Shown piece after piece: positions 40,759 through 59,849 of a stretch of DNA of 64,000 nt. The notes beneath the pieces are model-generated. The model did no database searches and was not told the DNA's origin. It saw only the letters and a program-made list of their open reading frames with translations. A program made the position numbers and the translations under genes. Source of the DNA: Eubacterium sp. (GTDB lineage: Bacteria; Bacillota; Clostridia; Lachnospirales; Lachnospiraceae); NCBI GenBank assembly GCA_022791495.1, contig JAAVZE010000032.1, positions 1 through 64,000 on the forward strand. Direction: 5' to 3'. Every line of letters starts with the position of its first letter. Positions within the stretch are counted from its first letter, which is position 1.

Positions 40759-41043
40759 ATGCCGTTAGAATCGGAATCTGGCAAAACTTTGTACCAGCTG
40801 CGGTACGCTGCCGGGATTTACTGGCTGCTTGATATGAGCCAGCCGGGACATCCCTACAGAAAGCCGCTGCCTCTGAATGAGATGGGAGCTTCGATCTGGA
40901 GAATGATGGAGAAGGGGATGGGACAGGAAGAGATTTCGGCAGATCTGGCAGCGGAATATGGGATTTCCCAGGATGAGGTGGAGAAGGATGTCCGGGAATT
41001 TTGTCAGCAGCTGAAACGGCAGGGAATCAAAGCGCGTAGCTGA
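40759..41043 (+). CDS. PqqD-like peptide-recognition protein
   Basis: A 94-residue protein with AAAGGAG before ATG 40759. Residues ~25-92 match the PqqD fold: the PLNEMGASIWRMMEKGMGQE segment and the EEISADLAAEYGISQDEVEK, DVREFCQQL helices. PqqD proteins and their relatives (RRE domains) bind leader peptides of ribosomally made precursors and present them to modifying enzymes. Here no radical-SAM or cyclodehydratase enzyme is nearby. It is the first gene of the polysaccharide operon. The only leader-like substrate in the region is the small protein at 59475. Confidence 0.85.
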   Translation: MPLESESGKTLYQLRYAAGIYWLLDMSQPGHPYRKPLPLNEMGASIWRMMEKGMGQEEISADLAAEYGISQDEVEKDVREFCQQLKRQGIKARS

Positions 41044-41095
41044 AAGATACAGGAGAAAATGAATTGCATCTGAACGGGACGGCGTGGAGGCGGTA

Positions 41096-43273
41096 ATGAA
41101 TATTTTACTTATTGGAGGCACGGGAAGTTTGATGAACCAGATGATCATCAAACTGAGAAAAGAAGGGCACAGGGTGTATCTGCTGACAGGAGAGCAATTC
41201 GGTACAAGTTCCTATGCAAAAGTATTTGAACGTTATGATTTTTCTTATGATAATAGTAGCCTGAATGAGATATTTGAAAGTGTCAGCCCGGATGTGACAT
41301 TGTTTTTGGGGGCATATGATTCCAATTTTTCCTGGCAGGAGAAGGAGCGGGATTCCGTGCAGTATATTTCGTCGCTTATGAACCTGCTGACTGCTTATGC
41401 CAGTGTGAGACAGGGGCGGTTCGTCTACCTTTCGTCGGAAGAGGTGTACCGGGGAAATTATGAGGAAGATATCACAGAGGATGTAACTGCCTGTGGGGAG
41501 GGATTCCGGGGAATGGCACTGGTACAGGCAGAGTATCTCTGTAATAATTTCAGGGAAATACAGGAACTGGACATAGTGGTGCTGAGACTGGATCATCTGT
41601 ACGGTATTCCGAAAGACCGGAGCCAGCTGGATGGGCTCTGTGGATCTATGTGTGTAAAGGCTTTGGAGCAGGGATATCTTCTGGCGAATCCGAACATCAC
41701 ACATTCCCTCTTATATGAGTCGGATGCTGTAGAGTTTATTTATCAGTTTATGAATAACAGGGAGACAGGATATTCCCTGTATCACATCTCGTCTTCTACT
41801 CCGGTGACTGAACTGCAGATCGGTAAGATTCTGTGCCGAATGATAGGAAACAATACGGAGCTCGTAGAAGCGAATGAATTGGGGGAGTACCGCAAAGTGC
41901 TTTCCAATCAGCGGTTTATCAGTGAATTCGGAGCTGCTGTCTGTCATCCTCCGGAGGATGGGATTCAGAGAGTGGCATCCTATATCCTGAAACATAAAGA
42001 GGCATTTATCCAGGAGGAAGAAAAGAAGAGATTTGGCGGGCGCCTCATCCACAGATTTGGCTGGTTTTTTAAGGCATGTGTCCCGTTTATAGAAAATATG
42101 GCTTGTTTTATTCCGTTTTTTATGTTAAATAACAGAACGGTTGACAGCCGGTATTTTTCGAGGCTGGATTTTTATCTGCTATATGTATTGCTTTTTGCTG
42201 TGGTCTATGGGCAGCATCAGGCAATTTTTTCCGCTGTGCTGGCAGTCTGTGGATATCTGTTCCGCCAAATGTACACCCGCAGCGGATTTGAAGTGATGCT
42301 GGATTACACCACCTATGTCTGGATGGCACAGTTATTCATACTTGGTCTGGTGGTGGGCTATATGCGGGATCAGATACGGGCGATCCGGACCGAGGGTGCA
42401 GAGGTCCAGAAGAATCTGGGACGCCAGCTGAGGGACATCAAAGATATCAACAGCAGCAACGTCCGGGTGAAGGATGTGCTGGAGCGGCAGGTAATCGATC
42501 AGAAGGACAGCATCGGAAAGCTGTACAGTATTACCTCTACCCTGGATCAGTATACGCCGGAAGAGGTCCTCTTTTATGCAGTAGAAATTTTATCCAAGAT
42601 CCTGCGCAGTCCGGATGTGGCGATTTATACTGTGTACAATTCAGATTACGCCAGACTGTTTTCCTCCAGCTCGGATGTGGCGCGCAAGCTGGGAAATTCC
42701 ATCCGTTATCCAGAGATGGGAGAGCTTTATGAGTGTCTGAAAGAGCGTAAGGTTTACATCAACCGCCAGATGGATGAACGATACCCTCTGATGGCAAATG
42801 CCATTTATGACAAAGAGGAAATGAATATGATCGTTATGGTATGGGGGATCCCATGGGAACGGATGACATTGGGACAGGCGAATCTGCTTGTTGTCATCAG
42901 TTACCTGATCCAGAATGCCATGCTGCGGGCAAGCCGTTACATGGCGGCTCTCGAAGAACAGAGATATGTGGAGGATACCCAGATTCTGGAACCTGAGGCG
43001 TTCAGCGCCCTTGTGACTGCCTACCAAAAGGCAAAAAGAAAAAACCTTACCGTATGTACGTTACTCCAGATACAGACAGAATCCGAAGATTATGAACAGA
43101 TTGGAAAAGTGTTGATGAAGAATCTTCGTCAGACCGACTACCTGGGTACCATGAGGGATGGTAAAATGTACGTGCTGCTGGCTAATACTCTTCGGAATGA
43201 GGCAGATATCGTCATCAGCAGATTTGCAGGAGCAGGGATACAAAGCAGGATCGTGGAAAGAATCGAGGAATGA
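41096..43273 (+). CDS. pelD: Epimerase-like/PelD fusion, candidate c-di-GMP receptor
   Basis: A 725-residue protein from ATG 41096 (GGAGG 41085-41089). Residues 1-300 have an NAD-dependent epimerase fold beginning ILLIGGTGSLM, but the catalytic YxxxK position reads MALVQ, so epimerase activity is doubtful. Residues ~330-440 hold four membrane segments. A GAF-like domain (~490-620) and a degenerate GGDEF domain follow (~640-725). In that domain NLRQTDYLG gives an RxxD (Arg678/Asp681), the inhibitory site PelD uses to bind cyclic di-GMP, while the GGDEF signature is replaced by RDGKMYV. PelD activates Pel polymer synthesis at the membrane. Epimerase-PelD fusions occur in Gram-positive pel clusters. 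Confidence 0.82.
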   Translation: MNILLIGGTGSLMNQMIIKLRKEGHRVYLLTGEQFGTSSYAKVFERYDFSYDNSSLNEIFESVSPDVTLFLGAYDSNFSWQEKERDSVQYISSLMNLLTAYASVRQGRFVYLSSEEVYRGNYEEDITEDVTACGEGFRGMALVQAEYLCNNFREIQELDIVVLRLDHLYGIPKDRSQLDGLCGSMCVKALEQGYLLANPNITHSLLYESDAVEFIYQFMNNRETGYSLYHISSSTPVTELQIGKILCRMIGNNTELVEANELGEYRKVLSNQRFISEFGAAVCHPPEDGIQRVASYILKHKEAFIQEEEKKRFGGRLIHRFGWFFKACVPFIENMACFIPFFMLNNRTVDSRYFSRLDFYLLYVLLFAVVYGQHQAIFSAVLAVCGYLFRQMYTRSGFEVMLDYTTYVWMAQLFILGLVVGYMRDQIRAIRTEGAEVQKNLGRQLRDIKDINSSNVRVKDVLERQVIDQKDSIGKLYSITSTLDQYTPEEVLFYAVEILSKILRSPDVAIYTVYNSDYARLFSSSSDVARKLGNSIRYPEMGELYECLKERKVYINRQMDERYPLMANAIYDKEEMNMIVMVWGIPWERMTLGQANLLVVISYLIQNAMLRASRYMAALEEQRYVEDTQILEPEAFSALVTAYQKAKRKNLTVCTLLQIQTESEDYEQIGKVLMKNLRQTDYLGTMRDGKMYVLLANTLRNEADIVISRFAGAGIQSRIVERIEE

Positions 43274-44181
43274 GTTCAGATATGGAGAGATTCATTATTG
43301 TGGTCCTTATCAATACTCTGGTGGCAGTGGGGTATCTGATCTGGAACCGGGTTCAAAATAAAGAGCGGCCTCTCAGTTATATTTCCAAAGGCATGGTGAT
43401 GATATTATGCCCTGTTCTCGGTGTTCTTTATGTCTTTTTTGGCTATATCATTTACCGTTGTTTTTTCTTCCAGGGGGTGGATCTGGAAGATGTGATCTTT
43501 AAAAAGGACCGGGTGAAGACCTTTACCCATGCCGATGAGGAACGTGGACGTACCGTTGTGTCCATGGAGGAGGCGTTAGCCGTTACGGATAAAGATAATC
43601 TGCGTACCCTGATGTTGAATGTGGTGAGGGGAGATATCCGGGAGTCGCTGGCCTCAATCTCACTGGCATTAAATAGTGAGGATTCGGAAACTTCCCACTA
43701 TGCGGCTTCGGTTCTCCAGGATGCGCTGAACGACTTTCGGACCACGGTGCAGAAGTGCTATAACGAGATTCAGAAACGGGAAGAAAATCAGGCGGAATAC
43801 ATTCGACTCCTCATTGATTATATGGACCAGGTACTGCGGCAGCAGGTATTTACAGATATGGAACAGAGATCCTTTGTGGAACAGATGGATTCTGTCTGTG
43901 AATTATTATATTGGGAACACCCGGATCAGGTGACAAGCCGTCACTTCCAGGCGGTCAGTATGCGTCTGCTTGAGATCCAGGATTTTGACCGGTGCAGGAT
44001 CTGGTGTGAGCGGGCAGCGGAACATTATCCAGATACGCTGGCTACCTATACATGCCAGCTGAAATTGTTTTTTTCCATTGGGGACAGGGAGCGGTTTTTT
44101 GAGGTCCTCTCGCAGCTGCGAAACTCCAAAGTGGTCATCGACAATGAGACGCTGGAGCTCATCCGGGTATTTCAGCAATAA
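43270..44181 (+). CDS. pelE: PelE-like membrane protein with helical repeats
   Basis: A 303-residue protein overlapping pelD by 4 bases (ATGA). Two membrane segments lie at ~8-24 and ~43-65. The remainder is a cytoplasmic helical region with TPR-like repeats (MRLLEIQDFDRCRIWCERAA, then HYPDTLATYTCQLKLFFSIG). PelE in known systems has the same layout, two helices then TPRs, and bridges PelD, PelF and PelG. The assignment rests on layout and gene order rather than strong sequence motifs. Confidence 0.7.
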   Translation: MSSDMERFIIVVLINTLVAVGYLIWNRVQNKERPLSYISKGMVMILCPVLGVLYVFFGYIIYRCFFFQGVDLEDVIFKKDRVKTFTHADEERGRTVVSMEEALAVTDKDNLRTLMLNVVRGDIRESLASISLALNSEDSETSHYAASVLQDALNDFRTTVQKCYNEIQKREENQAEYIRLLIDYMDQVLRQQVFTDMEQRSFVEQMDSVCELLYWEHPDQVTSRHFQAVSMRLLEIQDFDRCRIWCERAAEHYPDTLATYTCQLKLFFSIGDRERFFEVLSQLRNSKVVIDNETLELIRVFQQ

Positions 44182-44202
44182 GGAAGATAGAAGGTGCTGC
44201 CA

Positions 44203-46506
44203 ATGTCAATGAGGCTTTACACAATATTACAGTTTACCGAGATTTTAGGCGTATATATGATCATGACAGTACTGCTGCCTGCTTTCGTTCTGCATAACAG
44301 GATCCGGGAGCGCAGGTTTGCCCAGAAGTTTTTTATCTGTTTGCTGTCGGGAAATTTTTATATCATGAATCTCGTTTTTTTGTTGCAGCTTCTTCATATT
44401 TCCAATCGTTTTACGCTGGTCATCGCTACTTTTGTTCCGGCTCTTGTCCTGTGGCAGCGGTGGAATAATATAGGTCTTGTGTCCTTTTTTCGCAGCCTTT
44501 GGAATAATCTGCACCGTATTACGGAGGGAAAGCTGGGGGGAAAGACTGTTGTATTTCGTATCCTGGATCATCTGCGGCATGGCGTGGCAGCGGTGGGGCG
44601 TGGGTTTTTGTATAGTTTTAAAAAGAGGTGGCTGGAGTGGATACTGGTGGCGGCAGTTTTAGTACTGCTGGCAGCCTTCTACGGTATACAGCTGCTTCGG
44701 GGATATGGGTATACTGCTTCTGATACTCCGGTACATCTATACTGGATCAACGGAATGAGCAGAAACAATATTTTCATCGACGGGGTGTATCCCTTTGGTT
44801 ATCATTGTGTGATTTACTATCTTCATACAGTATTTGGTATAGACAGTTATGTCTTTATGCGGCTTTTTTCTTTTGTACAGACACTGATGCTCCATATGGT
44901 TCTGCTGGGATTCATCCGTCTGTGCTGCCGGAGCAGATACATCGGTTACGGAATCATGGGAATCTACGTAATTGGTAATTTTTTGCAGCCCAGCACATAT
45001 CTGCGTTTTTTTTCGGTACTTCCCCAGGAGTACGGAATGATCTTTATTCTTCCCTCGATTTATTTTGCTTTTTATTTTTTCCAGGAGAGAAGACAGGAAG
45101 TGAAAAAATGGCTGCCACCCAAAGAGTCCCGGTTTGCGCTGGTATTTTTTGCCATGAGCTTTTCCATGACTCTCGCGGTACATTTTTATGATACGATGAT
45201 CGCGGGGCTGTTTTGTGCGGGGGTGGCAGCAGGGTATCTGTTTTGGTTCCTGCGCAAACAGTATTTTTGGAGTGTGCTGCTCACTGGATTTATCAGTGTG
45301 ATGATCGCCGTTCTGCCGATGGCGGCAGCCTATGCCATGGGAACGCCGCTGCAGGGATCCCTGGGATGGGGGATGAGCGTCATCAACGGTTCTGATGAAA
45401 AGCAGGACAGCACAGAAGAGGACGACATTGGTGCCACGGTTATCTACTATGATGAAAGGGGGAACCAGGTGGCAGAACTGACCGTCCCAGAGTCTGGTGT
45501 AACCACAGGCGGTGGTGAACCGGCAGAGGGAATCCGGAAAAAGCTGGAGGGGGTATGGGATAGGCTCTGCTCTGCGATCAACGGTGCGGTGCTGCATGAG
45601 CCACAGTCCTGGTACTATCTTGTAGTTCTGGCTGCCATGGAGCTGCTCTTTTTGCTGGGGATTCTCTTTTTGGTGTTCCGAAGACCGTGTTATGGCGCCA
45701 TGCTTCTGTCCACAGGTGTCTTTATGGTACTGCTGCTGGTTCTTCAGACCGCGAAGGATTTAGGTCTGCCGGAGCTGATGGATGGCAGCCGGTGCCGGAT
45801 TTATTTTGGCTATATGCTGCCAGTGGCATTTGCCTTTGCGGCAGACGGGGTGATTCGTCTTATATTATGGAAGGAAAACTGGAGTAAAGGACGGAATTTT
45901 TGTTCTCTGGTCTGCGTGGCAGCTTCGGTCTGCCTGCTGTGGAACGGGGATTACCGCAAGGAACCCGTGGAGAATACAACCCTTGTCACCAATGAAGCCA
46001 TCACTTGTCTGACCAATATTATACGGGAAGAAAAGGATTTTACCTGGACAATCTGCTCTGCCAATGACGAGACGCAGATGGGACTGGATCATGGCTATCA
46101 TTATGAGCTGATCACCTTTTTGAAGGATATGGAATTAAATAACATGGAGCCAGGAGCGGAGCCATTGATCCGTATTCCTACCGACAGCGTATATGTCTTT
46201 ATCGAAAAAGTTCCCATTGACTATACAGAACATTATTCGGAAAGTGGTCAGCAGGTATCGAGACAGGGGGCGGTACGTGAGCTTCCCAGTGTGGGGGGCA
46301 TCGATATGTACAAAGGAGAGAACCGCTGGATTCTTATGTCCCGGATCTATTACTGGGCGCAGGAATTTAAGCAGCTGTATCCTTATGATGTGAGGACTTA
46401 TTGTGAGACGGACCAGTTCATATGTTATAAGATCAAACAGAACCCGTACCACTTACTAAATTTTGCTATCGACTACGGTTATAATTCCCGTAAAATAGAG
46501 GAGTGA
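44203..46506 (+). CDS. Large polytopic membrane protein, possible GT-C glycosyltransferase
   Basis: A 767-residue protein from ATG 44203 (AGAAGG upstream). I count about twelve to fourteen hydrophobic segments. After an early one, the loop YTASDTPVHLYWINGMSR, then YPFGYHCVIYYLHT, carries an acidic residue in the place where GT-C enzymes have their first catalytic Asp. A large extracellular domain follows near 400-450 and at the C-terminus. It has no counterpart in the classical Pel set. It could add a lipid-linked sugar or be a structural part of the exporter. Gap to the next gene is 4 bases. Confidence 0.6.
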   Translation: MSMRLYTILQFTEILGVYMIMTVLLPAFVLHNRIRERRFAQKFFICLLSGNFYIMNLVFLLQLLHISNRFTLVIATFVPALVLWQRWNNIGLVSFFRSLWNNLHRITEGKLGGKTVVFRILDHLRHGVAAVGRGFLYSFKKRWLEWILVAAVLVLLAAFYGIQLLRGYGYTASDTPVHLYWINGMSRNNIFIDGVYPFGYHCVIYYLHTVFGIDSYVFMRLFSFVQTLMLHMVLLGFIRLCCRSRYIGYGIMGIYVIGNFLQPSTYLRFFSVLPQEYGMIFILPSIYFAFYFFQERRQEVKKWLPPKESRFALVFFAMSFSMTLAVHFYDTMIAGLFCAGVAAGYLFWFLRKQYFWSVLLTGFISVMIAVLPMAAAYAMGTPLQGSLGWGMSVINGSDEKQDSTEEDDIGATVIYYDERGNQVAELTVPESGVTTGGGEPAEGIRKKLEGVWDRLCSAINGAVLHEPQSWYYLVVLAAMELLFLLGILFLVFRRPCYGAMLLSTGVFMVLLLVLQTAKDLGLPELMDGSRCRIYFGYMLPVAFAFAADGVIRLILWKENWSKGRNFCSLVCVAASVCLLWNGDYRKEPVENTTLVTNEAITCLTNIIREEKDFTWTICSANDETQMGLDHGYHYELITFLKDMELNNMEPGAEPLIRIPTDSVYVFIEKVPIDYTEHYSESGQQVSRQGAVRELPSVGGIDMYKGENRWILMSRIYYWAQEFKQLYPYDVRTYCETDQFICYKIKQNPYHLLNFAIDYGYNSRKIEE

Positions 46507-46510
46507 GAGT

Positions 46511-48331
46511 ATGATAACAAGGAAAAATTTTCTGATCATGGGAGTGACCATGTTCGTGCTGTTATTTCTGTTTCAGTTCTCACAGATCATGAAAGAGTCG
46601 GGAAATGAATATGACGTCAATCATTATGCAGTGGATGCCGGTCTGGAGGGAGAGGATGCCTGGCAGAAAAGCCCTCCGAAGGATGTGCTGAAAAAGGGAG
46701 ATTATGTGCTGTTTGTGGGAAACGGGAAGAGCGATATCGGAAAGACGGTCTCCTGGTGGTGTACGTATACAAAACGGGAACTGATGGTATGCCAGAGTGT
46801 GGAGGAATGTCCGGAAGATGTCTCCCAGAAGGCAGAGGTGCTTCTCCTGGAGTCGTCCTATGTCAGAGAAAAAAAGGATATTGAGGCATTGACGGAAATG
46901 GTACGGAGGGGAGGCACGCTGGTTTTCTGTGATCTGCCGGATGTCCCAGAGATAAAAGCCTCCCGCCAGTGGAAAGAGCTGCTGGGGATCCGTCAGGTGA
47001 AGGAACTGCGGCAGGAGATCAAGGGCGTAAATCTGTTTTCCGGATTTTTGCTGGGGGGGCAGGCGATCTATCTTCCAGCGGATGCCAAAGAGAAACAGGA
47101 GCGGCAGGATCTGGAGCATAGCATACCCTGGTATGAGACAACTAACGGCTGCAAAACTTATATGACAGGCATAGTTTCTGATCCTTCGGTGAAAAATGAG
47201 GAGCTGCCGCCATTGATCTGGCGTGTCGGTCTGGGAAAGGGCAAGGTGTTTGCTGTAAATGGCGATTATATGAAAGACTGCACCGGAATTGGCATGTTGA
47301 GCGCCATTCTGGCAGAGATTAAGCCCTATGATCTGTATCCGGTGGTAAATGCCCAGTGTATGGGAGTGGCAAATTTTCCGGGGCTGGCGGCAGAAAATTC
47401 GGAGAGAATGAAAGAACTCTACAGCAGGGAACTGCCCGCCGTATTCCGGGATATCATCTGGCCAGGCCTTTGTTCCGCAGTTGATAAAAGCGGTGCCCAT
47501 CTGACCTGTTATCTGGCTCCACAGTTTGATTACGGGGATGACAAGGAACCCCGGAAGGATCAGCTGGTCTTTTATCTGCGGCAGTTAAAGGAGAGGGAAG
47601 CGGAGGCAGGACTTACACTGGAGTATGTCTCTGCCGGTGATCTGACCCGGAAGATGAATGCAGATCAGTCCTTCTTCCAAAATTCTGGTAGCCAGTATCG
47701 GTATGGAGCAGCCTATATTCCCCCAGGAGGAGCGGCGTACAGTATAGAGAAGCTGAAGGACTATGCCTTTTTTGAACATATTCAGACCGTAGCAAGCATC
47801 TATTCGGCGGAGCGCCCGGTGGTTTCATATCTGGATGACAAAACGACGCTTCAAAGTATAACGAGTACGGGAATTTCCCATACCTATAAGGAAGATATCC
47901 GGATGAAAAGCCTCCAGACAGCGTTGGGTTATTCAAATATCGTTTTGGACATGAATCAGATCACCTGGCCGGAGGAAGAAGAGGACCGTTGGGAGATCGT
48001 GTCTGAGAAATTTTCCAGCCAGATCAATACCTACTGGAAGGCTTTTGAGATGTTTGATCAGACTTCGGCTTCCGAATGCGATACTAGAATACGGAATTTT
48101 CTTGCGATGGATTATGAGGATTCCAGAGAAGGTGACGAGATTCATGTCAGCATAAAGGAGCGGAACGGGGACCTGTGGTTTATTTTCCGAGCCCATGGAG
48201 AGAAGGTGGTGTCTGTACAGGGGGGAGATTTCACAAAGATTGAGACGGACGCTTATCTGATCCGTGCCGGCCAGGACGAGTTGACGATCCGGTGCCAACC
48301 GGAGGATTCCTTATATTATTATCTGCCCTGA
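46511..48331 (+). CDS. DUF2194-like membrane-anchored protein, PelA-deacetylase position
   Basis: A 606-residue protein with one N-terminal membrane anchor (FLIMGVTMFVLLFLFQFSQI) and a large extracellular part. Residues ~50-190 look flavodoxin/glutamine-amidotransferase-like (YVLFVGNGKSDIGKTVSWWC). The central part has HLTCYLAPQFDYGDDKEP, and later GISHTYKEDIRM. The order resembles DUF2194 proteins, which take the place of the PelA deacetylase in Gram-positive pel clusters and deacetylate the GalNAc polymer. I see candidate metal ligands (Asp in FDYGDD, His in ISHTY) but cannot confirm them. Confidence 0.65.
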   Translation: MITRKNFLIMGVTMFVLLFLFQFSQIMKESGNEYDVNHYAVDAGLEGEDAWQKSPPKDVLKKGDYVLFVGNGKSDIGKTVSWWCTYTKRELMVCQSVEECPEDVSQKAEVLLLESSYVREKKDIEALTEMVRRGGTLVFCDLPDVPEIKASRQWKELLGIRQVKELRQEIKGVNLFSGFLLGGQAIYLPADAKEKQERQDLEHSIPWYETTNGCKTYMTGIVSDPSVKNEELPPLIWRVGLGKGKVFAVNGDYMKDCTGIGMLSAILAEIKPYDLYPVVNAQCMGVANFPGLAAENSERMKELYSRELPAVFRDIIWPGLCSAVDKSGAHLTCYLAPQFDYGDDKEPRKDQLVFYLRQLKEREAEAGLTLEYVSAGDLTRKMNADQSFFQNSGSQYRYGAAYIPPGGAAYSIEKLKDYAFFEHIQTVASIYSAERPVVSYLDDKTTLQSITSTGISHTYKEDIRMKSLQTALGYSNIVLDMNQITWPEEEEDRWEIVSEKFSSQINTYWKAFEMFDQTSASECDTRIRNFLAMDYEDSREGDEIHVSIKERNGDLWFIFRAHGEKVVSVQGGDFTKIETDAYLIRAGQDELTIRCQPEDSLYYYLP

Positions 48332-48406
48332 TGTGTACATTGTCCCATTTCAGGAATGTTTCAGATGAAATCAGGCAGGGTTAGACAGAGAAAAGAGGTG
48401 AGAGAG

Positions 48407-49864
48407 GTGAAGATCTGTATTGTGGCAGAAGGGTGTTATCCCTATGTTGTAGGCGGAGTATCCGGCTGGATTCACAGCATGATCCGCAATTTTCCGAATA
48501 TTGAATTTATCCTGCTGGCCATCGTGGCGAACCGTTCCCAGCGGGGCAGATTTGCCTATGAACTGCCAGAAAATCTCACGGAGGTTCACGAGGTATACTT
48601 AGAGGACCGCGACTGGCAGAACCGGGAGATGAAAAGAAATAAATTCAAATTAAATAAAAAGGAATACCAGGCGCTGAGAAGTATGGTGCTCAATGAAAAG
48701 ATAGACTGGGACATTATCTTTGACCTCTTTTATTTTAAAAAGTTTTCCATCGATGAATTATTGATGGGACCGGATTTTTTTCATATTGCCAGGGAATGTT
48801 ATAAGATCCGCTACTCCCAGATCGTATTCTCGGACTTTTTGTGGACCCTTAGATCCATCTATCTTCCCCTTTTTTTTGTTTTAAAGACCAGGGTTCCTCT
48901 GGCAGACCTGTATCATTGTGTCTCCACTGGTTACGCCGGAATACTGGGAAGTATGGCAAAGCATTTTTACGGCTGCGGCCTGCTGGTCTCAGAGCACGGG
49001 ATCTATACCAGGGAAAGGGAAGAAGAGCTGATCAAAGCAGACTGGGTGGATGGGATCTATAAAAATATATGGATCGAACAGTTTAAAAAGATGTCTCTGG
49101 CAGCCTATGACCGGGCGGATCTGGTTACCAGCCTGTACGAACACGCCAGAGGCCTCCAGATCGAGCTGGGATGCCCTGCCGAAAAAACCAGGGTAACCCC
49201 CAACGGCATCGATACGGGAAGACTGGAAGAAATTCCCTATAAGAAGGGGGAAGAGCGAAATATGATCCAGATCGGGGCGGTACTCCGGGTGACCCCCATC
49301 AAGGATGTGAAGACGATGATCCAGGCATTTTCTTTTGCCAAAAAGAAGGTACCAGCCCTTCGTCTGTTTATCATGGGACCTTGTGACGAGGATGAGGAAT
49401 ATGCAGGGGAGTGTTTTGAACTGGTAGAAACACTGGGGGTATCCGATGTGGTATTCACCGGGCGGGTGGACGTCAGGGAATACCTGGGGCGTATGGATAT
49501 GACCATTCTCACCAGTATCAGTGAAGGGCAGCCGCTGACGATATTAGAGAGCTTTGCGGCGCATAAGCCGGTGATCGCCACTGATGTGGGGAACTGCCGG
49601 GGGCTGATCTATGGTGAGGAGGACGATTTTGGGACAGCGGGGATTCTCACCCACATTATGAATCTGGAAGAGATTACCGATGCCATGGTGGAGCTGGCAC
49701 AGAATCAGGAACAGAGAGAACGGATGGGGGAAAACGGATACCGCCGGGTAATGAGCAAATATAAGATCGAGGACATGCGGAAGACCTATCGTGAAATTTA
49801 TTACGATTTTTGTGGACATTTTGGCGGGATCTGGAGTGAAGAAGCATTTTCTGTTACCGGATAG
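48407..49864 (+). CDS. pelF: PelF glycosyltransferase (GT4)
   Basis: A 485-residue cytoplasmic glycosyltransferase. I choose GTG 48407, preceded by GAGGTGAGAG, because it gives VKICIVAEGCYPYVVGGVSG, the exact start expected of PelF. The GT4 C-terminal domain has RVTPIKDVKTMIQAF and the nucleotide-sugar E-x7-E motif SEGQPLTILESFAAHKPVIA. PelF polymerises the Pel backbone (GalNAc-rich in Pseudomonas) from UDP-sugars together with PelG. This is the strongest marker for the identity of the locus. Confidence 0.93.
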   Translation: MKICIVAEGCYPYVVGGVSGWIHSMIRNFPNIEFILLAIVANRSQRGRFAYELPENLTEVHEVYLEDRDWQNREMKRNKFKLNKKEYQALRSMVLNEKIDWDIIFDLFYFKKFSIDELLMGPDFFHIARECYKIRYSQIVFSDFLWTLRSIYLPLFFVLKTRVPLADLYHCVSTGYAGILGSMAKHFYGCGLLVSEHGIYTREREEELIKADWVDGIYKNIWIEQFKKMSLAAYDRADLVTSLYEHARGLQIELGCPAEKTRVTPNGIDTGRLEEIPYKKGEERNMIQIGAVLRVTPIKDVKTMIQAFSFAKKKVPALRLFIMGPCDEDEEYAGECFELVETLGVSDVVFTGRVDVREYLGRMDMTILTSISEGQPLTILESFAAHKPVIATDVGNCRGLIYGEEDDFGTAGILTHIMNLEEITDAMVELAQNQEQRERMGENGYRRVMSKYKIEDMRKTYREIYYDFCGHFGGIWSEEAFSVTG

Positions 49865-49879
49865 AGGGGAGAGGTGATT

Positions 49880-51355
49880 ATGGCTGGAATCGGCGTAAAA
49901 CTGAATAAAATATACAATAAGAATACGCTGACTACCAATCTGGTCGGTATGGGATACAGTACGGTGATCACCATCGCTCCTATGATCATGGTGATTTTTG
50001 CTATTGTTGCGATGCAGCTAATATTGGAGATTTCAAAAACCGGTTATGCAGCCAGGGAGTTGTTTGCCTGCACTGTCCTTTATATCTTTGTTTTTTCCCT
50101 GCTGACAGCGGCCCCCTTTAATTCTGTTTTGTCAAGATATATGTCCGATGTGATCTATGATGAGACTTACGATGACGTTCTTCCCTGTTTTTATATGGGG
50201 ATGGTTATAAATGTTGGATTCAGCTGCCTGTTTGGCATCCCCTTCTGTATCAGGGAGTATATGGTGGCGCAGGTGTCTGGTGCTTTTGTCGCAGTCGGCT
50301 ACTGCGGATATGTTTTGCTGGTTCTGGTATTCTATGAGATGCTGTATCTGTCTATCTGTAAAGATTATAAGAAGATCTCCTTCTTTTTCTTTCTGGGGAT
50401 GGTGCTGACCGTAGGCTTATCTGCTGCACTTGTCTATTGGTTCCATTTGGAAAAGACCTTTTCTATGCTGGTTTCTCTGGATGTTGGGTTCCTTTTGATC
50501 GCCAGCCTGGAGATCGCCGTGATACGAAATTATTTCCGGGGAAACAGTGGGGAATATAAAAGGGTACTACACTATTTTAAGCGGTACTGGAAGCTTATCG
50601 TGACGAATTTTCTCTATATCCTTGGATTGTTTATCCACAATTTTGTATTCTGGACCACAGAACTTCAGATGGTGGTGGCGGACACCTTCGTGAGTGCTCC
50701 TTCCTACGATCTGGCGACCTGCCTTGCCATGTTTACCAATATTTCTACTTCGATTATTTTTATTTCCCGGATAGAAATGCATTTTCACGAGAGATATAAG
50801 GCCTACTCGGAGGCGGTGATCGGCGGCAGGGAGATGGACATTGATCTGGCGAAAAAACGGATGTTCCGTCAGGTTTCCGAGGAATTAATGAATCTCGCCA
50901 GAATCCAGTTTATTATTTCTGCGGTCCTGTTCTTTCTGTGTATTATCCTGCTTCCCAGGTTTGGTTTTGGGGGAATGGTGATGAAGATTTATCCATGTCT
51001 GGCAGCAGGTTATTTTATATTATTTATCATGTATGCAGCGATTATTTTCCTGTATTATTTTAATGATCTCACGGGCTCTCTTCTGACTGCACTGATTTTT
51101 TGCCTGTCAACTCTTGGTGGAAGCATTGTAGCGGTGAACCTGTCGGAGATCTGGTATGGGATCGGTGTGTTCACAGGAGCTTTTCTGGGTTGGTGCAGTG
51201 CCTACTACCGCCTGAACTGGCTGGAAGACCATCTCGATGAGCATGTGTTCTGCCGGGGAAGCATCTTGGAGGCTGGGCATGGTAAACAGCCGGATTCCAA
51301 AGTGTTTGACCGGTATTCGCTGGTGTTACAGCAAAAAGAGAATGAGGAGGCGTGA
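49880..51355 (+). CDS. pelG: PelG membrane transporter
   Basis: A 491-residue membrane protein from ATG 49880 (GAGAGGTG upstream). The N-terminus AGIGVKLNKIYNKNTLTTNL is typical of PelG, a Wzx-like member of the MOP superfamily. About twelve membrane segments follow. PelG exports the polymer made by PelF across the membrane. It begins 15 bases after pelF, and its end overlaps the next frame if GTG 51352 is used. Confidence 0.92.
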   Translation: MAGIGVKLNKIYNKNTLTTNLVGMGYSTVITIAPMIMVIFAIVAMQLILEISKTGYAARELFACTVLYIFVFSLLTAAPFNSVLSRYMSDVIYDETYDDVLPCFYMGMVINVGFSCLFGIPFCIREYMVAQVSGAFVAVGYCGYVLLVLVFYEMLYLSICKDYKKISFFFFLGMVLTVGLSAALVYWFHLEKTFSMLVSLDVGFLLIASLEIAVIRNYFRGNSGEYKRVLHYFKRYWKLIVTNFLYILGLFIHNFVFWTTELQMVVADTFVSAPSYDLATCLAMFTNISTSIIFISRIEMHFHERYKAYSEAVIGGREMDIDLAKKRMFRQVSEELMNLARIQFIISAVLFFLCIILLPRFGFGGMVMKIYPCLAAGYFILFIMYAAIIFLYYFNDLTGSLLTALIFCLSTLGGSIVAVNLSEIWYGIGVFTGAFLGWCSAYYRLNWLEDHLDEHVFCRGSILEAGHGKQPDSKVFDRYSLVLQQKENEEA

Positions 51356-51360
51356 AGTCC

Positions 51361-51732: not shown

Positions 51733-51784
51733 TATTTCTATATTCATTAGCTCGATGGAGTCGGGTCAGGCGGGAGGTGTGTGA

Positions 51785-52993: not shown

Positions 52994-53005
52994 GGAGGTG
53001 ACGAT

Positions 53006-53782: not shown

Positions 53783-55052
53783 ATGGAGGTTTGAGCCCTT
53801 TGAACTCATAGAGTCTGCCGAAGAGTTGTACAATCCGGGGCGGGGTTGGTATCAGATCCATACCTTTGAAACCGGAACCTGCAGGACGCCGGAGGAAATG
53901 AGGAGCAGTCTCCATGAAACCGATTCCCTTGTGCTTCTCTTGATCCGCATACCCGCCAGCGGTGACTTTATAAAACGGGAGGAACTGGATTGGATCCGCA
54001 GCATTCTAAAGACTTTTTTTGAGGCTGGGAAGGATATCCTGCTACGATTTGTCTACGATCTGGAGGGAAAAGGACTGGAAAATGAACCAGACTGTTTTGC
54101 TATAGTGGAGGGGCATTTTCAGCAGCTGGCGAAATTGATGGGAGCAAAGGCACAGCATATTTTTGTGTATCAGGGGATACTTGTGGGGAGCTGGGGAGAG
54201 ATGCACACCTCAAGATATCTGTCTTCCAGATATATGTGCCGTCTGGCATCGATCTTTCGGGAAGGCACGGAAGGCAGGATCTATCATTCTGTGCGAAAAC
54301 CTGTCCAGTGGAGACAGATCTTTGACCGGGAGGAATGGGAGAGAGCGGCGAAGACTGCTAAGACCGGGCTGTACAACGATGGTATTCTTGCCTCGGAGAC
54401 AGATCTGGGTACCTTTGGGTACCAGCCCAGGGAAGAGACTGGCTGGGAACAGCCCTGGCTCCCCCAGGAAGAACTGGATTTTGAGGAGCACTTATGCCGG
54501 TATGCGCCCCAGGGCGGTGAGGTGGTCTATGGGGAGATGACAGAAAAGATGTCGCTGGAACAGATCGCCGGACGGCTGTCCCGGATGAATCTCTCCTATC
54601 TCAACCGGGACCATGATAAAAGAGTATTTGAGATCTGGCGAAAGCTGAAATGGCAGAAAGAGGATGTCTGGCAGGGGATGAATGGCTTTGATTATATTGG
54701 CCGTCATCTGGGATACCGGTTTGTGGTACGCAAAGTATTACTAAAACCGGGAAAGAAAGAAATGAAGCTGCAGCTGGAGATCGAAAACATCGGTTTTGCC
54801 AGGATGTATGAAGAGGCAGAACTGTTGCTGGAATATGAGGATCTGGATGGAAATACCGAGATCCAAAAGATCGAAACAGATGTACGAAATTGGAACCCCG
54901 GTGGGAGGGTTTGTCTGTCGCAGAACCTGATATCAAGAGAGGGTAAATATTTTCTCTCGATGCGCAGATGCCTTGACAGCAGGGCGGTATATTTTGCCAA
55001 CCGCCAGGGAGAGAAGGGGCGTCTGCTGTTAGGAAAGGTTATTTTATACTGA
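53766..55052 (+). CDS. DUF4874/DUF4832 protein, cytoplasmic form
   Basis: A 428-residue protein, start ATG 53766 (GCGGGGG upstream), with 53751 as alternative. The N-terminal DUF4874 part has YNPGRGWYQIHTFE and GILVGSWGEMHTSRY, reminiscent of TIM-barrel glycoside hydrolases. The C-terminal DUF4832 part is a beta domain (LQLEIENIGFARMYEEAELL). No signal peptide is present, unlike its paralogue at 55039. The family is uncharacterised and usually sits in polysaccharide loci. Its stop overlaps the convergent paralogue by 14 bases. Confidence 0.85.
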   Translation: MKRMHRWRFEPFELIESAEELYNPGRGWYQIHTFETGTCRTPEEMRSSLHETDSLVLLLIRIPASGDFIKREELDWIRSILKTFFEAGKDILLRFVYDLEGKGLENEPDCFAIVEGHFQQLAKLMGAKAQHIFVYQGILVGSWGEMHTSRYLSSRYMCRLASIFREGTEGRIYHSVRKPVQWRQIFDREEWERAAKTAKTGLYNDGILASETDLGTFGYQPREETGWEQPWLPQEELDFEEHLCRYAPQGGEVVYGEMTEKMSLEQIAGRLSRMNLSYLNRDHDKRVFEIWRKLKWQKEDVWQGMNGFDYIGRHLGYRFVVRKVLLKPGKKEMKLQLEIENIGFARMYEEAELLLEYEDLDGNTEIQKIETDVRNWNPGGRVCLSQNLISREGKYFLSMRRCLDSRAVYFANRQGEKGRLLLGKVILY

Positions 55053-56469
55053 GCTGCCCGCAGACCACATCTTCTTCTGAACTCTGCCCGCCATTGGCAA
55101 ACTGGATGGAAATGCCGGTGGATTGGTCAGTCATGGACAGAGAGAGCTGCCAGGTTCCCGCCGGGATGGATTTTATATCCATGGACACGGACAGGGTCTG
55201 CGGTTTGTCTGGCAGCAGGGTCCGGTTATCAAAAGCGACTGGAAGGGATATTTTTTCTCCGCTGGAAGTATTGTGGAGAAGGATCTCTGTGTCAAAAGAG
55301 CGGTAGGCTGGCGAGAATCCAGTGTTTTCCACAGTTATGTGCAGGGCAGGCCGGGGACGAAATCCTTCTGTGCCTGTCACCCAGGAATTCCGCACCACAT
55401 ACCGGTAGCCCAGATGGGCGGCGATATAGTCATAGCCGTCTGCCCCGTCAAAAGGATCACCGGGGGTTCCCTGAAACTGGGAAGCTTTCCATTTGTCCAG
55501 CACAGAAGAATCATGGTCGGCGCTGAGATAGGACACATGCATCTGTCTCAGATCCGGGACTGCACGGTTCAGGTCATTGTAAGGATTATCCAGGACAGCT
55601 TCGCCTCCATTGGGCACATAAAGACAGAGCTGGTTCTGAAACCGGATCTCTTCTGACCGGGTTCCCTTTTCGGCGGGATCACTGGTTCCGGCAAAGGGAG
55701 TGTCATCGTAGGTGCCACAGTCGTACACATCACCGAGCATACCGTCATTGTAGAGACCGAGGCGCGCCGGAAGGCCTCCGGTATATGCCTGGCTGCTGTC
55801 CAAAGGTGTTCTGGTACCTGTGATGATCCGCAGATGCTGTGGCGTCCGAACGGATAAAAATATATCCGGGGAAGTCACAGAGGCAAGGGTTTCCATAAAC
55901 AGAGTGAGATGTTCCCTGTCTCCATAATGGGTCTGGTTCATCTCCCCGCAGTTGCCGGTAAATATTCCCTGCAGGAGGAAGACATGGCTGGAGAAGCGGT
56001 TCACCACCGGTGCCACCTGTTTCATATGGGACAGGATCCGCTCCTGGCTGGCTGGCTCTGTCTGGAGGGCATTCCCCTCCCAGTCGTAGAGGAAGCGGAC
56101 AATAAGCTGTCTGTCTGCGCCGGAAAATGTAGAAAGTATCGTATCCAGCTGATCCAGGGCAGAGTTGCTGATGGGGCTGCCAGAATAATTCTTGAGGTTG
56201 ATCTGCAGCAGAAGGATGGACTGGGAGTCGTTGGCCAGCATATTTTCACACCACTGCTGAGCGGGTTCCCTGCCTTCCTCTGACAGAAGATAGCCATAGA
56301 GGTGATAGAACCCACAATAGGGATTATTCAGTATCTCACTGTTCTCTTCCATGGCTGCAGCCTCATACTGGATGCGGGGAACAGTGAAGTAAAACAGGGC
56401 ACACAGCCCGCATACCAGAACCAGGCTGCCCAACAGAATATATCGTTTTTTTAAGATAAAATGGGACAT
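55039..56469 (-). CDS. DUF4874/DUF4832 protein, membrane-anchored form
   Basis: A 476-residue paralogue of the previous gene on the opposite strand. It has an N-terminal anchor (YILLGSLVLVCGLCALFYFT), so the DUF4874 (NNPYCGFYHLYGYL, GIFTGNCGEMNQTHYG) and DUF4832 (LHITVENTGFSPAYRSFDTE) domains lie outside the cell. AGGAAGG precedes the start. The putative acidic residue in GEM is conserved in both paralogues. It interrupts an otherwise plus-strand locus, so it must have its own promoter in the divergent gap at 56470-56618. A role in trimming or binding the polymer outside is plausible. Confidence 0.85.
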   Translation of the reverse strand: MSHFILKKRYILLGSLVLVCGLCALFYFTVPRIQYEAAAMEENSEILNNPYCGFYHLYGYLLSEEGREPAQQWCENMLANDSQSILLLQINLKNYSGSPISNSALDQLDTILSTFSGADRQLIVRFLYDWEGNALQTEPASQERILSHMKQVAPVVNRFSSHVFLLQGIFTGNCGEMNQTHYGDREHLTLFMETLASVTSPDIFLSVRTPQHLRIITGTRTPLDSSQAYTGGLPARLGLYNDGMLGDVYDCGTYDDTPFAGTSDPAEKGTRSEEIRFQNQLCLYVPNGGEAVLDNPYNDLNRAVPDLRQMHVSYLSADHDSSVLDKWKASQFQGTPGDPFDGADGYDYIAAHLGYRYVVRNSWVTGTEGFRPRPALHITVENTGFSPAYRSFDTEILLHNTSSGEKISLPVAFDNRTLLPDKPQTLSVSMDIKSIPAGTWQLSLSMTDQSTGISIQFANGGQSSEEDVVCGQLSIK

Positions 56470-56618
56470 AGAGAATTTTCCTTCCTATATGGTGGCGCCG
56501 CCAGGACGGCATGTCTGATCAGCGGTATAGGGCAGGCTCAGATCAGCGCTATTGAGCTAAGTATAACATAGAAGCAGAAAGAATACGATAAAAAAGTAAA
56601 AGGGGGCGAAAGAAAGTG
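56470..56618. promoter_or_regulatory. Divergent region, DUF4832 gene / flippase gene
   Basis: This 149-bp gap must hold promoters for both directions. GATCAGCG occurs at 56517-56524 and again at 56541-56548 in direct orientation, a possible regulator site. TATAAC near 56562 is a weak -10 candidate for the rightward gene. Confidence 0.35.
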
Positions 56619-58160
56619 ATGGAGAGAAGCAGGACGGAGCACTCGGTCCGCAATACCACTGCGGCGATGGTATCGAAGATCGTCGCGATCCTTATGGGGT
56701 TTGCCACAAGAGTGGTGTTCACCCATTGCCTCAGTGAGAGCTATGTCGGGGTAAATGGTCTCTTTTCGGATGTGCTGAATGTGCTGGCGCTGTCTGAACT
56801 GGGGGTGGGTACTGCTATTACCTATGCCCTTTATAAGCCGATCGCGGAAGGGGATTTTGAGCGGCAGAAATCCCTTATGAAGATGTACTGCCGGTTTTAT
56901 CGAATTGTGGCGGGGATCGTCTTAGCAGGGGGGCTGGCGGTCATCCCATTTATGGATGTACTCATCCGGCATCAGCCGGAAGTGGATCATCTGATATTGA
57001 TCTATCTGATGTATCTGACAAATTCGGTGCTGTCCTATCTGCTGATCTACAAAAAGACACTGATCGATGCCCATCAGCTCAGCTATATCGGAGAGATCTA
57101 CCAGATGATATTTCTTCTGATCCAGGATACGCTGCAAATCATACTTCTTCTGGCGACCCATAATTTTATACTGTTTCTCGTCATATATATTTTGTGTACT
57201 CTGGGAAATAATATCAGCATATCCAGGAAGGCGAACCGCCTCTATCCCTATCTGAGAGAGAAGAACATCCAGCCCCTGGATCCCGAGGAGAGAAAGGGAA
57301 TATTTAAAAACATCCGCGCCATGCTTATGCACAAGATCGGGGACGTAGTGGTAAATAATACCGACAATCTAATGTTGTCCTCCATCGTGGGGATCATCAG
57401 CGTGGGCTGTTATTCCAACTACTATCTGGTGATCGGTTCCATCCATCAGCTGGTGAGCCAGGTGTTCCGTGGGATCACAGCCAGCGTGGGAAATCTGGGT
57501 GTGACTGAGGACAGCGGCCGGGTGAGACGGATCTTCGAGAGTTCTTTTTTTGTGGGACAGTGGATGTATGGTTTTGCGGTGATCTGTCTCTATGAACTGT
57601 TAAATCCCTTTGTGGAGATCAGCTTTGGATACCAGTATGTATTTCCGATGGAGGTGGTTCTGGTTTTATGCCTCAATTTTTTCGTCACAGGAATGCGGCA
57701 GGCGGCGCTGGTATTTCGGGATTCACTGGGATTGTTCTGGTTTGACCGGTACAAATCCCTGGCAGGGGCGCTTTTGAATCTGGTGATCTCTATCGTTCTG
57801 GCAAGGCAGTACGGTACGGTGGGCGTATTTGCCGGGACGCTGATCAGTACGCTCCTGACCTCCTTCTGGGTAGAACCGTGGATTCTGTACCGGCATAGTT
57901 TAAAGAGCAGGGCCGCCTCTTATTTCCTGCGTTATGGATTTTATACGGCAGTGGTGGCAGGAGCGGGGTTTGTGACAAATCTGCTCTGTCTCAGAGTGGG
58001 GGGCGGAACGTGGAGAATTTTAGGCATCCGTTTACTGATTTGTATCACGATTCCGAATCTTATTTTTCTTCTCTGCTATTTCCGAACGAAGGAATTCCGG
58101 TTTTTGTGTAAGAAGTTTATCAGTGTGACGGATAAATGGAGGGAAAGGGCCAATGAATAA
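56619..58160 (+). CDS. Wzx-type polysaccharide flippase
   Basis: A 513-residue membrane protein of the polysaccharide transporter (PST/MOP) family, from ATG 56619. The start MERSRTEHSVRNTTAAMVSK and GFATRVVFTHCLSESYVGVN are typical, followed by about twelve to fourteen membrane segments. It would flip a lipid-linked glycan, distinct from PelG, which handles the Pel polymer. Two exporters in one locus suggest two glycan products or a decorated polymer. It overlaps the next gene by 8 bases. Confidence 0.9.
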   Translation: MERSRTEHSVRNTTAAMVSKIVAILMGFATRVVFTHCLSESYVGVNGLFSDVLNVLALSELGVGTAITYALYKPIAEGDFERQKSLMKMYCRFYRIVAGIVLAGGLAVIPFMDVLIRHQPEVDHLILIYLMYLTNSVLSYLLIYKKTLIDAHQLSYIGEIYQMIFLLIQDTLQIILLLATHNFILFLVIYILCTLGNNISISRKANRLYPYLREKNIQPLDPEERKGIFKNIRAMLMHKIGDVVVNNTDNLMLSSIVGIISVGCYSNYYLVIGSIHQLVSQVFRGITASVGNLGVTEDSGRVRRIFESSFFVGQWMYGFAVICLYELLNPFVEISFGYQYVFPMEVVLVLCLNFFVTGMRQAALVFRDSLGLFWFDRYKSLAGALLNLVISIVLARQYGTVGVFAGTLISTLLTSFWVEPWILYRHSLKSRAASYFLRYGFYTAVVAGAGFVTNLLCLRVGGGTWRILGIRLLICITIPNLIFLLCYFRTKEFRFLCKKFISVTDKWRERANE

Positions 58161-59385
58161 CAGCACAATGGTGACATTTTCCCAGAGCGAAAGAAAGCTG
58201 TTTGGCTATCTGGCTGCCACGCTTTGCGGGGAAGAGGCGAAGGTTCCAGATCAGCCGCTTTCCGATGAATGCTGGGAGGAAATACTGGGGTTGGCGCAGG
58301 CCCATGTGGTGCTGCCGCTGCTGTATCCTCTCGTGGAACAGGGATATCCGTTTCCAGAATCATTTCGGCTCCGCCTGGAAAATGAAAGCCGGCGCACGGT
58401 TCAGCAGAGTTATCATCTGATGTTTCTTACCCACTATGTGGTAAATGCTCTGGAAGAGGCGGGAATTCCTTCTGCTGTTCTCAAAGGGGCTGCTGCCGCG
58501 GGGGATTATCCGGTACCCGAACTGCGTAAATCCGGAGATGTGGATGTGCTCTTGATGAAGCCGGAACAGCTTGGAAAGGCAGAACGACTTTTCCTGGAAA
58601 TGGGATTTAACAGCAAACCCGGTGAAAATGGAAATCATCATGAGGTATGGCGGACCAGTGAGGGGATCGATGTGGAGCTTCATGTGATGATGGCAGAACC
58701 CTTCGACAGCGAAAAGATTAACAGTTTTTTGAGTAACCAGATGGATCAGCTGCGACGGCGGACCCAGGTAGTCAATGTGATGGGACTGGACTTCCCGGTG
58801 CTGGAAAAGGGAGACCATGCCTTTCAGCTGCTTCTTCATATGCTGCAGCATTTCCTGCGTGCAGGGTTTGGTCTTAAACTTCTCTGCGACTGGGTGGCGT
58901 TGTGGAACGGGGCGGTGCCTCAGACAGAACGGGAAAGGTATCTCATGTGGATCCGGCAGACCGGCCTGAGGGGATTTTCTGATATGATCACTTCTCTTTG
59001 TACTGAATATCTCGGACTGGACAGAGGGCGGGCAGAGGGGATCCTGACAGGAACTTTTCAGGGCTCTGCGGAGGTATTCATGAGGGAGATTCTCGATGCT
59101 GAGGAGTTTGGCCTTCATGAAAAAAGCCGGATGGTGGTGCTTCGGGGAAATAGCTTTATGGATTATGTCCGGGAATTTCACCATCAGATGCGGCTGGGGT
59201 ATCCCAGCGCAAGCCGTATCCTGCTGCTCTGGCCGGTATTGTGGGTGATGGCCTTTGTAAAGTTCTGCCGGAATAACCAGAAGATCCGGGGGATTTCTTT
59301 CCTGGAGGTGATCCAGAGAACGAGAGAGCGGAGCCGGTATACGAAGGAGCTGCATTTGTTCAAAAATTTTGAAAGGGATAAATAA
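58153..59385 (+). CDS. Nucleotidyltransferase-family protein (NTP_transf_5-like)
   Basis: A 410-residue protein. The segment SAVLKGAAAAGDYPVPELRK, then SGDVDVLLMK, contains the GD-x-D active-site pattern of minimal nucleotidyltransferases in the NTP_transf_5 family. The rest is helical. I recall this family together with PqqD-like proteins and polysaccharide genes in Firmicutes loci, and a PqqD-like gene opens this one. Its target is unknown. It overlaps the flippase gene by 8 bases, so both are translated together. Confidence 0.8.
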   Translation: MNNSTMVTFSQSERKLFGYLAATLCGEEAKVPDQPLSDECWEEILGLAQAHVVLPLLYPLVEQGYPFPESFRLRLENESRRTVQQSYHLMFLTHYVVNALEEAGIPSAVLKGAAAAGDYPVPELRKSGDVDVLLMKPEQLGKAERLFLEMGFNSKPGENGNHHEVWRTSEGIDVELHVMMAEPFDSEKINSFLSNQMDQLRRRTQVVNVMGLDFPVLEKGDHAFQLLLHMLQHFLRAGFGLKLLCDWVALWNGAVPQTERERYLMWIRQTGLRGFSDMITSLCTEYLGLDRGRAEGILTGTFQGSAEVFMREILDAEEFGLHEKSRMVVLRGNSFMDYVREFHHQMRLGYPSASRILLLWPVLWVMAFVKFCRNNQKIRGISFLEVIQRTRERSRYTKELHLFKNFERDK

Positions 59386-59397
59386 AGATACGAATCA

Positions 59398-59427
59398 TTG
59401 ACAAAGCATAATGAAATGTTATATAAT
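59398..59427 (+). promoter_or_regulatory. Consensus promoter of the 59475 gene
   Basis: TTGACA (59398-59403), 18 bp, TATAAT (59422-59427). Both boxes match the sigma-A consensus exactly, suggesting strong separate transcription of the small protein gene. It begins 12 bases after the stop of the nucleotidyltransferase gene, with no terminator between. Confidence 0.85.
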
Positions 59428-59474
59428 ACGGATATAGATGCATAGTGAATCGCTTTTTTATGGAGGATGAACGT

Positions 59475-59849
59475 ATGAAAGAGTATAGCAAACCGACCAT
59501 CTTGATCAATGAAGAGCTGAGTGAGGGTGTGTATGCAGCCAGTGGATGTTATACCATCACGACGCAGGTTCATCAAGAGATGCAGACTGGCCGCGGTGAT
59601 TACCGGATTCAGATTGATGGCAAACATCAGGCGGACCACACAAAAGACAAACAGACGATGACGATATCCTTTAATCTGCCTGTTGAATATAAGCACAGCA
59701 ATGGAACTCTTGTTGGTCTCGGTACAGGAACAACTCTTGTGATTGATTACTTTTATCACCAGAATCCGACGGATAATATTGGGCTTGGGGATCTAATTGT
59801 TACAGCGGATACAGGCCTTCAGGTGACCAGTGTGAAACTGACGGATTAA
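59475..59849 (+). CDS. Small protein with leader-like N-terminus and beta-rich core
   Basis: A 124-residue protein. ATG 59475 has GGAGG at 59462-59466 with 8-base spacing; the longer frame from 59445 includes the ribosome-binding site. Residues 1-25 (KEYSKPTILINEELSEGVYA, then ASGC) look like a leader ending at a small-residue stretch, and do not form a classical signal peptide. The core (RGDYRIQIDGKHQADHTKDK, NLPVEYKHSNGTLVGLGTGT, DNIGLGDLIVTADTG) looks like a beta-sandwich. I believe similar EGVYAASG proteins occur in other Lachnospiraceae. It may be a target of the PqqD-like protein or a component bound to the polymer; both are hypotheses. Confidence 0.75.
   Translation: MKEYSKPTILINEELSEGVYAASGCYTITTQVHQEMQTGRGDYRIQIDGKHQADHTKDKQTMTISFNLPVEYKHSNGTLVGLGTGTTLVIDYFYHQNPTDNIGLGDLIVTADTGLQVTSVKLTD

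Follow-up and report, generated by a model that had tools for sequence, protein, structure and literature searches.

The window analysed here, a stretch of 64,000 nucleotides from a contig of a gut Lachnospiraceae bacterium, contains a Pel locus that lies between the gene for a stand-alone PqqD-like protein on its left and the genes for a nucleotidyltransferase-family (NTP_transf_5) protein and a small protein on its right, as described in a first-pass annotation (Table 1). PelF and PelG are encoded together with PelD- and PelE-like genes, the gene content by which a Gram-positive Pel locus is recognised, and both the extended form of PelD and the DUF4832 accessory genes, which are present in the window according to Pfam, are known from Gram-positive pel loci (PMC7112168). 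The flippase gene adjoins the NTP_transf_5 gene in many of the related loci that encode leader-bearing proteins. Immediately to the left of the locus, in AT-rich DNA of 31–36% GC compared to about 48% in the pel region, is the gene for a P-loop protein of 1270 residues in which membrane segments are predicted (36765–40577). Directly past the small protein and an AraC regulator is a secreted protein of 1012 residues with fibronectin type III domains (60925–63963); a different protein of 1254 residues is found instead in loci L007 and L011, and the 1012-residue protein is absent in L010.

Table 1. Features of the Pel locus, the small-protein gene and the adjoining contig
Feature	Position	Strand	Evidence
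Stand-alone PqqD-like (RRE) protein, first pel-operon gene	40759..41043	+	PF05402, 54.9 bits, E 1e-14
PelD with N-terminal epimerase-like domain	41084..43273	+	PF01370, E 2e-12
PelE-like protein	43270..44181	+	Position after PelD, syntenic in most pel loci compared; no Pfam match
Large pel-operon membrane protein	44194..46506	+	Syntenic in related loci; no Pfam match
DUF2194 protein at PelA-deacetylase position	46511..48331	+	PF09960, E 9e-22
PelF glycosyltransferase	48356..49864	+	NF038011, 367.9 bits, above cut-off; PF11997
PelG exporter	49874..51355	+	PF16933, 508.9 bits
Wzx/MATE-like flippase	56616..58160	+	ORF content and synteny (L036, L041, L043, L045, L083); no Pfam match <1e-3
NTP_transf_5 nucleotidyltransferase-family protein	58153..59385	+	PF14907, 142 bits, E 2.6e-41
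Sigma-70 promoter of small-protein gene, TTGACA-18-TATAAT	59398..59427	+	12/12 consensus match
24-residue leader MKEYSKPTILINEELSEGVYAASG	59475..59546	+	Common to 26 proteins in 18 loci
Mature part of small protein	59547..59849	+	AF2, predicted beta-sandwich
ABC exporter	about 64072-65844 (contig continuing window numbering)	-	Pfam ABC_membrane and ABC_tran
PqqD-kinase fusion, 387 residues	about 65961-67124	-	N-terminal PqqD, PF05402, 36.6 bits; C-terminal Walker A domain
S26-type (S24/S26) peptidase, small	about 67198-67704	+	S24/S26-type profile matches below cut-offs

The small protein and its leader

The gene at the right end of the Pel locus encodes a protein of 124 amino acids with the N-terminal segment PTILINEELSEGVYAASG. 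Its start is the ATG at 59475 behind a Shine-Dalgarno site, a position on which this site and the homologues, among which the start is conserved, agree, and the ORF beginning at GTG 59445 is an over-long version of the same gene. The suggestion that the protein is strongly expressed is supported by its perfect consensus promoter, and promoters matching the consensus at 11 or more of 12 positions are located upstream of 8/26 leader genes compared to 3/500 random 90-mers.

The mature part is predicted by AF2 to be beta-rich, as previously proposed, with a mean pLDDT of 73 for the whole protein and 10-residue block means of 66–93 over residues 41–124, and leader residues 1–17 (pLDDT <50) are predicted to be disordered. 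The best PDB matches of the predicted mature fold in Foldseek are CBM2/chitin-binding domains (E 0.003–0.03, TM about 0.5–0.65). A Pfam search gave no support for CBM2, and hhalign comparison with a CBM2 profile gave no homology, using a small and poor CBM2 alignment with at least one apparently misframed row; the PDB sequence search returned no useful match, the best being a capsid protein at E 0.06. The predicted beta-sandwich is weakly reminiscent of cellulose- or chitin-binding modules, and this CBM-like predicted fold, the co-occurrence with Pel and the consensus promoters together suggest that the small protein may be a matrix component, present in abundance, with an affinity for polysaccharide. 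The host genome (G000) has 12 CBM2 matches, suggestive of a plant-polysaccharide user.

The leader follows the pattern M-x-x-Y-x-K-P-V-V-(x)5-E-L-A-E-G-V-Y-A-A-S-G. Counting from its right end, E-8, G-7, S-2 and G-1 are present in 26/26 proteins and V-6 and Y-5 each in 24/26, in a collection made with a regular expression that fixes the E and the last G and admits only S or C ahead of that G; at positions that this expression does not demand, K-19 is found in 18/26 and P-18 in 22/26. When the pattern was searched as DNA against 299 genomes there were 13 matches, compared to one for the reversed pattern; the match in G211 is antisense to housekeeping genes and was rejected as a chance occurrence. 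The mature parts, which are diverse and about 55–137 residues long, fall into seven sequence clusters (phmmer/BLASTP, E<1e-3). The largest is the family of the window's protein, whose 16 members include one doubtful case (L084) and a distant CW-type subgroup tied to the others by hhalign (probability 93); the remainder are two Cys-rich families of four and two members and four singletons (L013, L014, L037 and L047). These are at least six unrelated groups, a count that applies at the sequence level because several of the singletons look rich in beta-strands on inspection and may be distantly related. BLASTP alignments between members of different clusters extend over only about 24 leader residues (for example, 62.5% over 24 residues, E 7e-7). 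The segment noted at first as conserved-looking is conserved well beyond chance. That it heads proteins whose mature parts are unrelated argues most strongly for its acting as a leader or recognition tag.

None of the 26 proteins has a Sec-like hydrophobic segment, the maximum 11-residue KD being 1.10 compared to 3.03 in a Sec control. The low KD of the leader rules out its reading as a Sec signal peptide, and Sec export is unlikely because the leader is not hydrophobic. No paper in the library searched contains the motif, and EGVYAASG would, if this reading is correct, provide a simple sequence handle for finding all substrates. Four members of one Cys-rich family (L041 8732–9106, L046 10362–10877, L048 10404–10769 and L083 12908–13252) share the pattern C-(D/E)-S-x-Y-(M/V)-x-G...GC-x-GC...CGL, and the one member scanned has no Pfam match.

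Exporter, PqqD-kinase fusion and peptidase to the right of the window

The next 10 kb rightward on the window's contig contain the genes for an ABC exporter, a PqqD-kinase fusion and an S26-type peptidase, which were missed initially because they are outside the window; the first-pass statement that no known RiPP enzyme is present holds within the window but fails 4–8 kb further right, where these three are encoded. The fusion, the leader-peptidase-like S26 protein and the exporter are the most consistent partners of the leader proteins. PqqD domains are RiPP recognition elements (RREs), either discrete or fused (PMC7470986), and a PqqD/RRE domain is encoded here near precursors with a conserved leader and a variable mature part, the arrangement by which an RRE system is recognised; the fused PqqD is more likely to be the leader reader than is the stand-alone protein.

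The Walker A sequence SG-x-GKSTH and an NGD motif are invariant in 12 aligned fusions. Against true HprK, hhalign yields an alignment of just 17 columns, confined to the P-loop, and the Pfam scan of the fusion finds neither PF07475 nor any kinase family; identity with HprK was rejected as the profile comparison fails beyond the P-loop, and for these reasons catalysis by the putative kinase is unproven. Profile searches also gave weak hits to models for SynChlorMet ScmC and for HprK-related kinases. The AF2 model of the fusion (pLDDT 40) was set aside, and its profile matched PqqD proteins in the PDB through the PqqD domain, with the remainder giving chance-level chains; PDB sequence searches returned nothing useful for the NTP_transf_5 or S26 proteins. 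In the peptidase, Ser42, His82 and Asp97 (the Ser, His and VGD box) are invariant in all 11 sequences, which is consistent with a role in cutting the leader. The exporter has ABC_membrane and ABC_tran alone at cut-off with no C39 domain, and the leader ends in SG in 26/26 proteins and never in GG, which together rule out an exporter of the C39 type (PCAT).

Relatives of the small protein are present on eight further contigs and in eight further genera within our sample of 299 Lachnospiraceae genomes (one per genus, except for one genus with two), and the exporter, the fusion and the S26 peptidase recur around the leader proteins, in most cases alongside NTP_transf_5 and pel genes. A full-length fusion is encoded by 16/299 genomes, with a bimodal distribution of scores (374 bits or more, the next being 212). 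PelG is found in 15/16 fusion genomes compared to 37/283 others (p=9e-12), NTP_transf_5 in 16/16 compared to 82/283 (p=7e-9), and the fusion in 12/12 of the genomes recovered by the leader-pattern or small-protein search with G211 set aside (p=2e-18), noting that the fusion-profile rows come from these same loci and that the genera are not fully independent. The leader proteins are statistically associated with PqqD and NTP_transf_5 genes, so the first-pass proposal passes the check that it had set itself, by which a lack of association would have refuted it.

Leader proteins are encoded by 15/16 fusion genomes, including three (G076, G094 and G096) added by reading the loci, and an S26-type peptidase is near the core in 12/16. 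G135 has the fusion, with neither a leader protein nor an exporter in the sequence read there, and G096 has the leader system without PelG. Locus L047 has a leader protein, fusion and exporter with no pel genes nearby, the pel locus of that genome being on another contig, and because all three are present without adjacent pel genes we regard them as the core unit. Two of the PelG genomes counted as lacking the fusion carry related sets: G213 has a divergent version of the whole system (a fusion of 397 residues and a leader ending ...EAVYAESG), and in G035 the genes are unfused and the related leader-like peptide is MREWKKPEVKVFDVKMDENIAASG. In locus L120 (7717–11033 and 13645–13899), genes for PqqD, S26, kinase-like and ABC proteins, again unfused, are located beside a Pel locus, together with an 84-residue leader-like peptide beginning MREWKKPEVKVFDVKMDENIAASG. 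Across 291 genomes sampled from the class, two Lachnospiraceae members alone give strong fusion matches.

A proposed leader-directed export route and its alternatives

We consider it likely that these genes constitute a cassette in which the leader directs the maturation and export of small, highly expressed proteins that are secreted and act together with Pel. We infer that the cytosolic precursor, carrying a non-hydrophobic 24-residue leader, is bound by the fusion through its PqqD (RRE) domain and perhaps also by the stand-alone PqqD of the pel operon. The S26-type Ser/His peptidase would cleave the leader at ...AASG or close to it, A-x-S-G being the natural site, and the dedicated ABC exporter would carry the beta-sandwich protein out of the cell. 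More speculatively, the kinase-like domain and the NTP_transf_5 protein would probably modify the bound protein, by phosphorylation followed by nucleotidyl or sugar transfer on the analogy of pseudomycoidin, and outside the cell the protein would be expected to bind or cross-link Pel or another polysaccharide. The first-pass proposal, of a leader-marked protein recognised by PqqD, modified or nucleotidylated, and exported with or attached to the polysaccharide, is supported in part, as to the leader and as to the association with Pel (15/16), with an incomplete list of partners. A stronger version is quite unlikely, namely a new class of protein secretion pathway in gut Firmicutes in which the PqqD-kinase fusion reads the 24-residue leader of beta-sandwich proteins that are already folded domains, a linkage group is installed by the kinase and a nucleotidyltransferase, and the exported proteins become covalently joined to Pel.

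The cassette could instead be of the RiPP type, the small proteins being large precursors in which phosphorylation of the core is followed by its glycosylation or nucleotidylation, with modification rather than folded-domain export as its purpose. PqqD, a kinase-like protein and NTP_transf_5 are the enzyme set that tailors some lasso peptides (PMC9266682), the weak matches to ScmC and HprK-related kinase models point the same way, and unfused relatives of the kinase, PqqD, S26 and ABC genes, together with NTP_transf_5, occur with radical SAM enzymes in loci L123 (4335–10573) and L124 (3720–10011) of other Lachnospiraceae. These two sets, one of which adjoins a small ORF beginning MKKEFMEPEMRRIELNLKERIATSYT, are probably a radical-SAM RiPP branch of the leader system. 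However, the mature parts are long and diverse and that of the window is predicted to be folded, no modifiable residue is common to all of them, and only 2/26 have the C-terminal Ser on which lasso kinases act, such that we regard this explanation as unlikely.

It is very unlikely that the role of PqqD and NTP_transf_5 is in Pel assembly itself, with no relation to the leader proteins. The PqqD gene does come first in the pel operon, directly before pelD, and it adjoins pelD in most genomes with the leader system; a nucleotidyltransferase is also drawn beside the pel genes in Roseburia (PMC7112168). However, a stand-alone PqqD is within 15 kb of PelG in 11/15 fusion genomes compared to 3/37 PelG genomes without the fusion (p=6e-6), and NTP_transf_5 in 12/15 compared to 2/37 (p=2e-7), and the exceptions G213 and G035 carry related kinase, S26 and ABC sets. 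That the products are antimicrobials or signals with their own exporter, near Pel merely as part of a joint cell-surface gene island, is highly improbable, for although an ABC exporter, leader and protease are the usual bacteriocin layout and several of the proteins are Cys-rich (L041, L046, L048, L050 and L083), the Pel association holds across genera at the genome level (15/16 versus 37/283), the window's protein is predicted to be beta-sandwich-like, there is neither a GG leader nor a C39 domain, and no immunity gene was noted.

The leader-directed export system beside the Pel genes looks to be previously undescribed, and a literature search for the PqqD/S26/HprK combination returned nothing. 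If correct, it would give the Lachnospiraceae, which are major gut bacteria, a route by which abundant proteins of the surface or matrix are delivered without a signal peptide, and would extend leader recognition by PqqD from short peptides to folded domains. The route would be tied to a biofilm polysaccharide whose function in Lachnospiraceae is uncertain, the Roseburia pel loci having been called unclear (PMC7112168), and is of relevance to secretion, RiPP and gut-biofilm research.

Comparison with known systems

The lasso tailoring cassettes (paeninodin PadeK, pseudomycoidin PsmK/PsmN) are similar in having a PqqD-fold leader reader, an HprK-like kinase, an NTP_transf_5-type nucleotidyltransferase and an ABC exporter, but the system here has a cargo of about 100 residues that is predicted to be folded, a PqqD fused to the kinase, and an S26-type peptidase. 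Neither a lasso cyclase (Asn-synthetase-like) nor a B2 protease was seen among the neighbours that recur, for which flanking ORFs were profile-scanned in part, and a lasso peptide cluster was rejected from the length of the mature parts, the predicted beta-sandwich of the window's protein and the lack of a short core peptide. In pseudomycoidin the phosphorylation is carried out by PsmK and the addition of a hexose requires PsmN (PMC9266682), making it, by analogy, the nearest functional precedent for a kinase acting with an NTP_transf_5-type protein. The SynChlorMet and HPr-rel-A cassettes (TIGR04249, TIGR04352 and TIGR04353) also have a PqqD relative with an HprK-like protein and give weak profile matches, although all are far below the family cut-offs and no radical SAM enzyme is seen in the window's system.

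The double-glycine (PCAT/C39) ABC exporters share a short N-terminal leader and a dedicated ABC exporter, but the present system has no C39 domain, a leader ending in SG, and a separate Ser/His peptidase. The nickel superoxide dismutase maturation protease (TIGR02754), which acts on a non-Sec N-terminal leader, is likewise a small S26-like protease, with a profile match below cut-off (E 2.6e-5), but the substrates and neighbours here are different. The Gram-positive pelDEADAFG locus shares PelD, PelE, PelF and PelG and the accessory DUF4832 genes; in its published description PqqD is absent from the main text and a nucleotidyltransferase appears only in the legend of a supplementary Roseburia figure (PMC7112168), and we did not find the kinase fusion or leader proteins described for such loci in the literature. 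We regard the system as a variant of the RRE-dependent, leader-directed kind, distinguished by cargo predicted to be folded and by its link to Pel.
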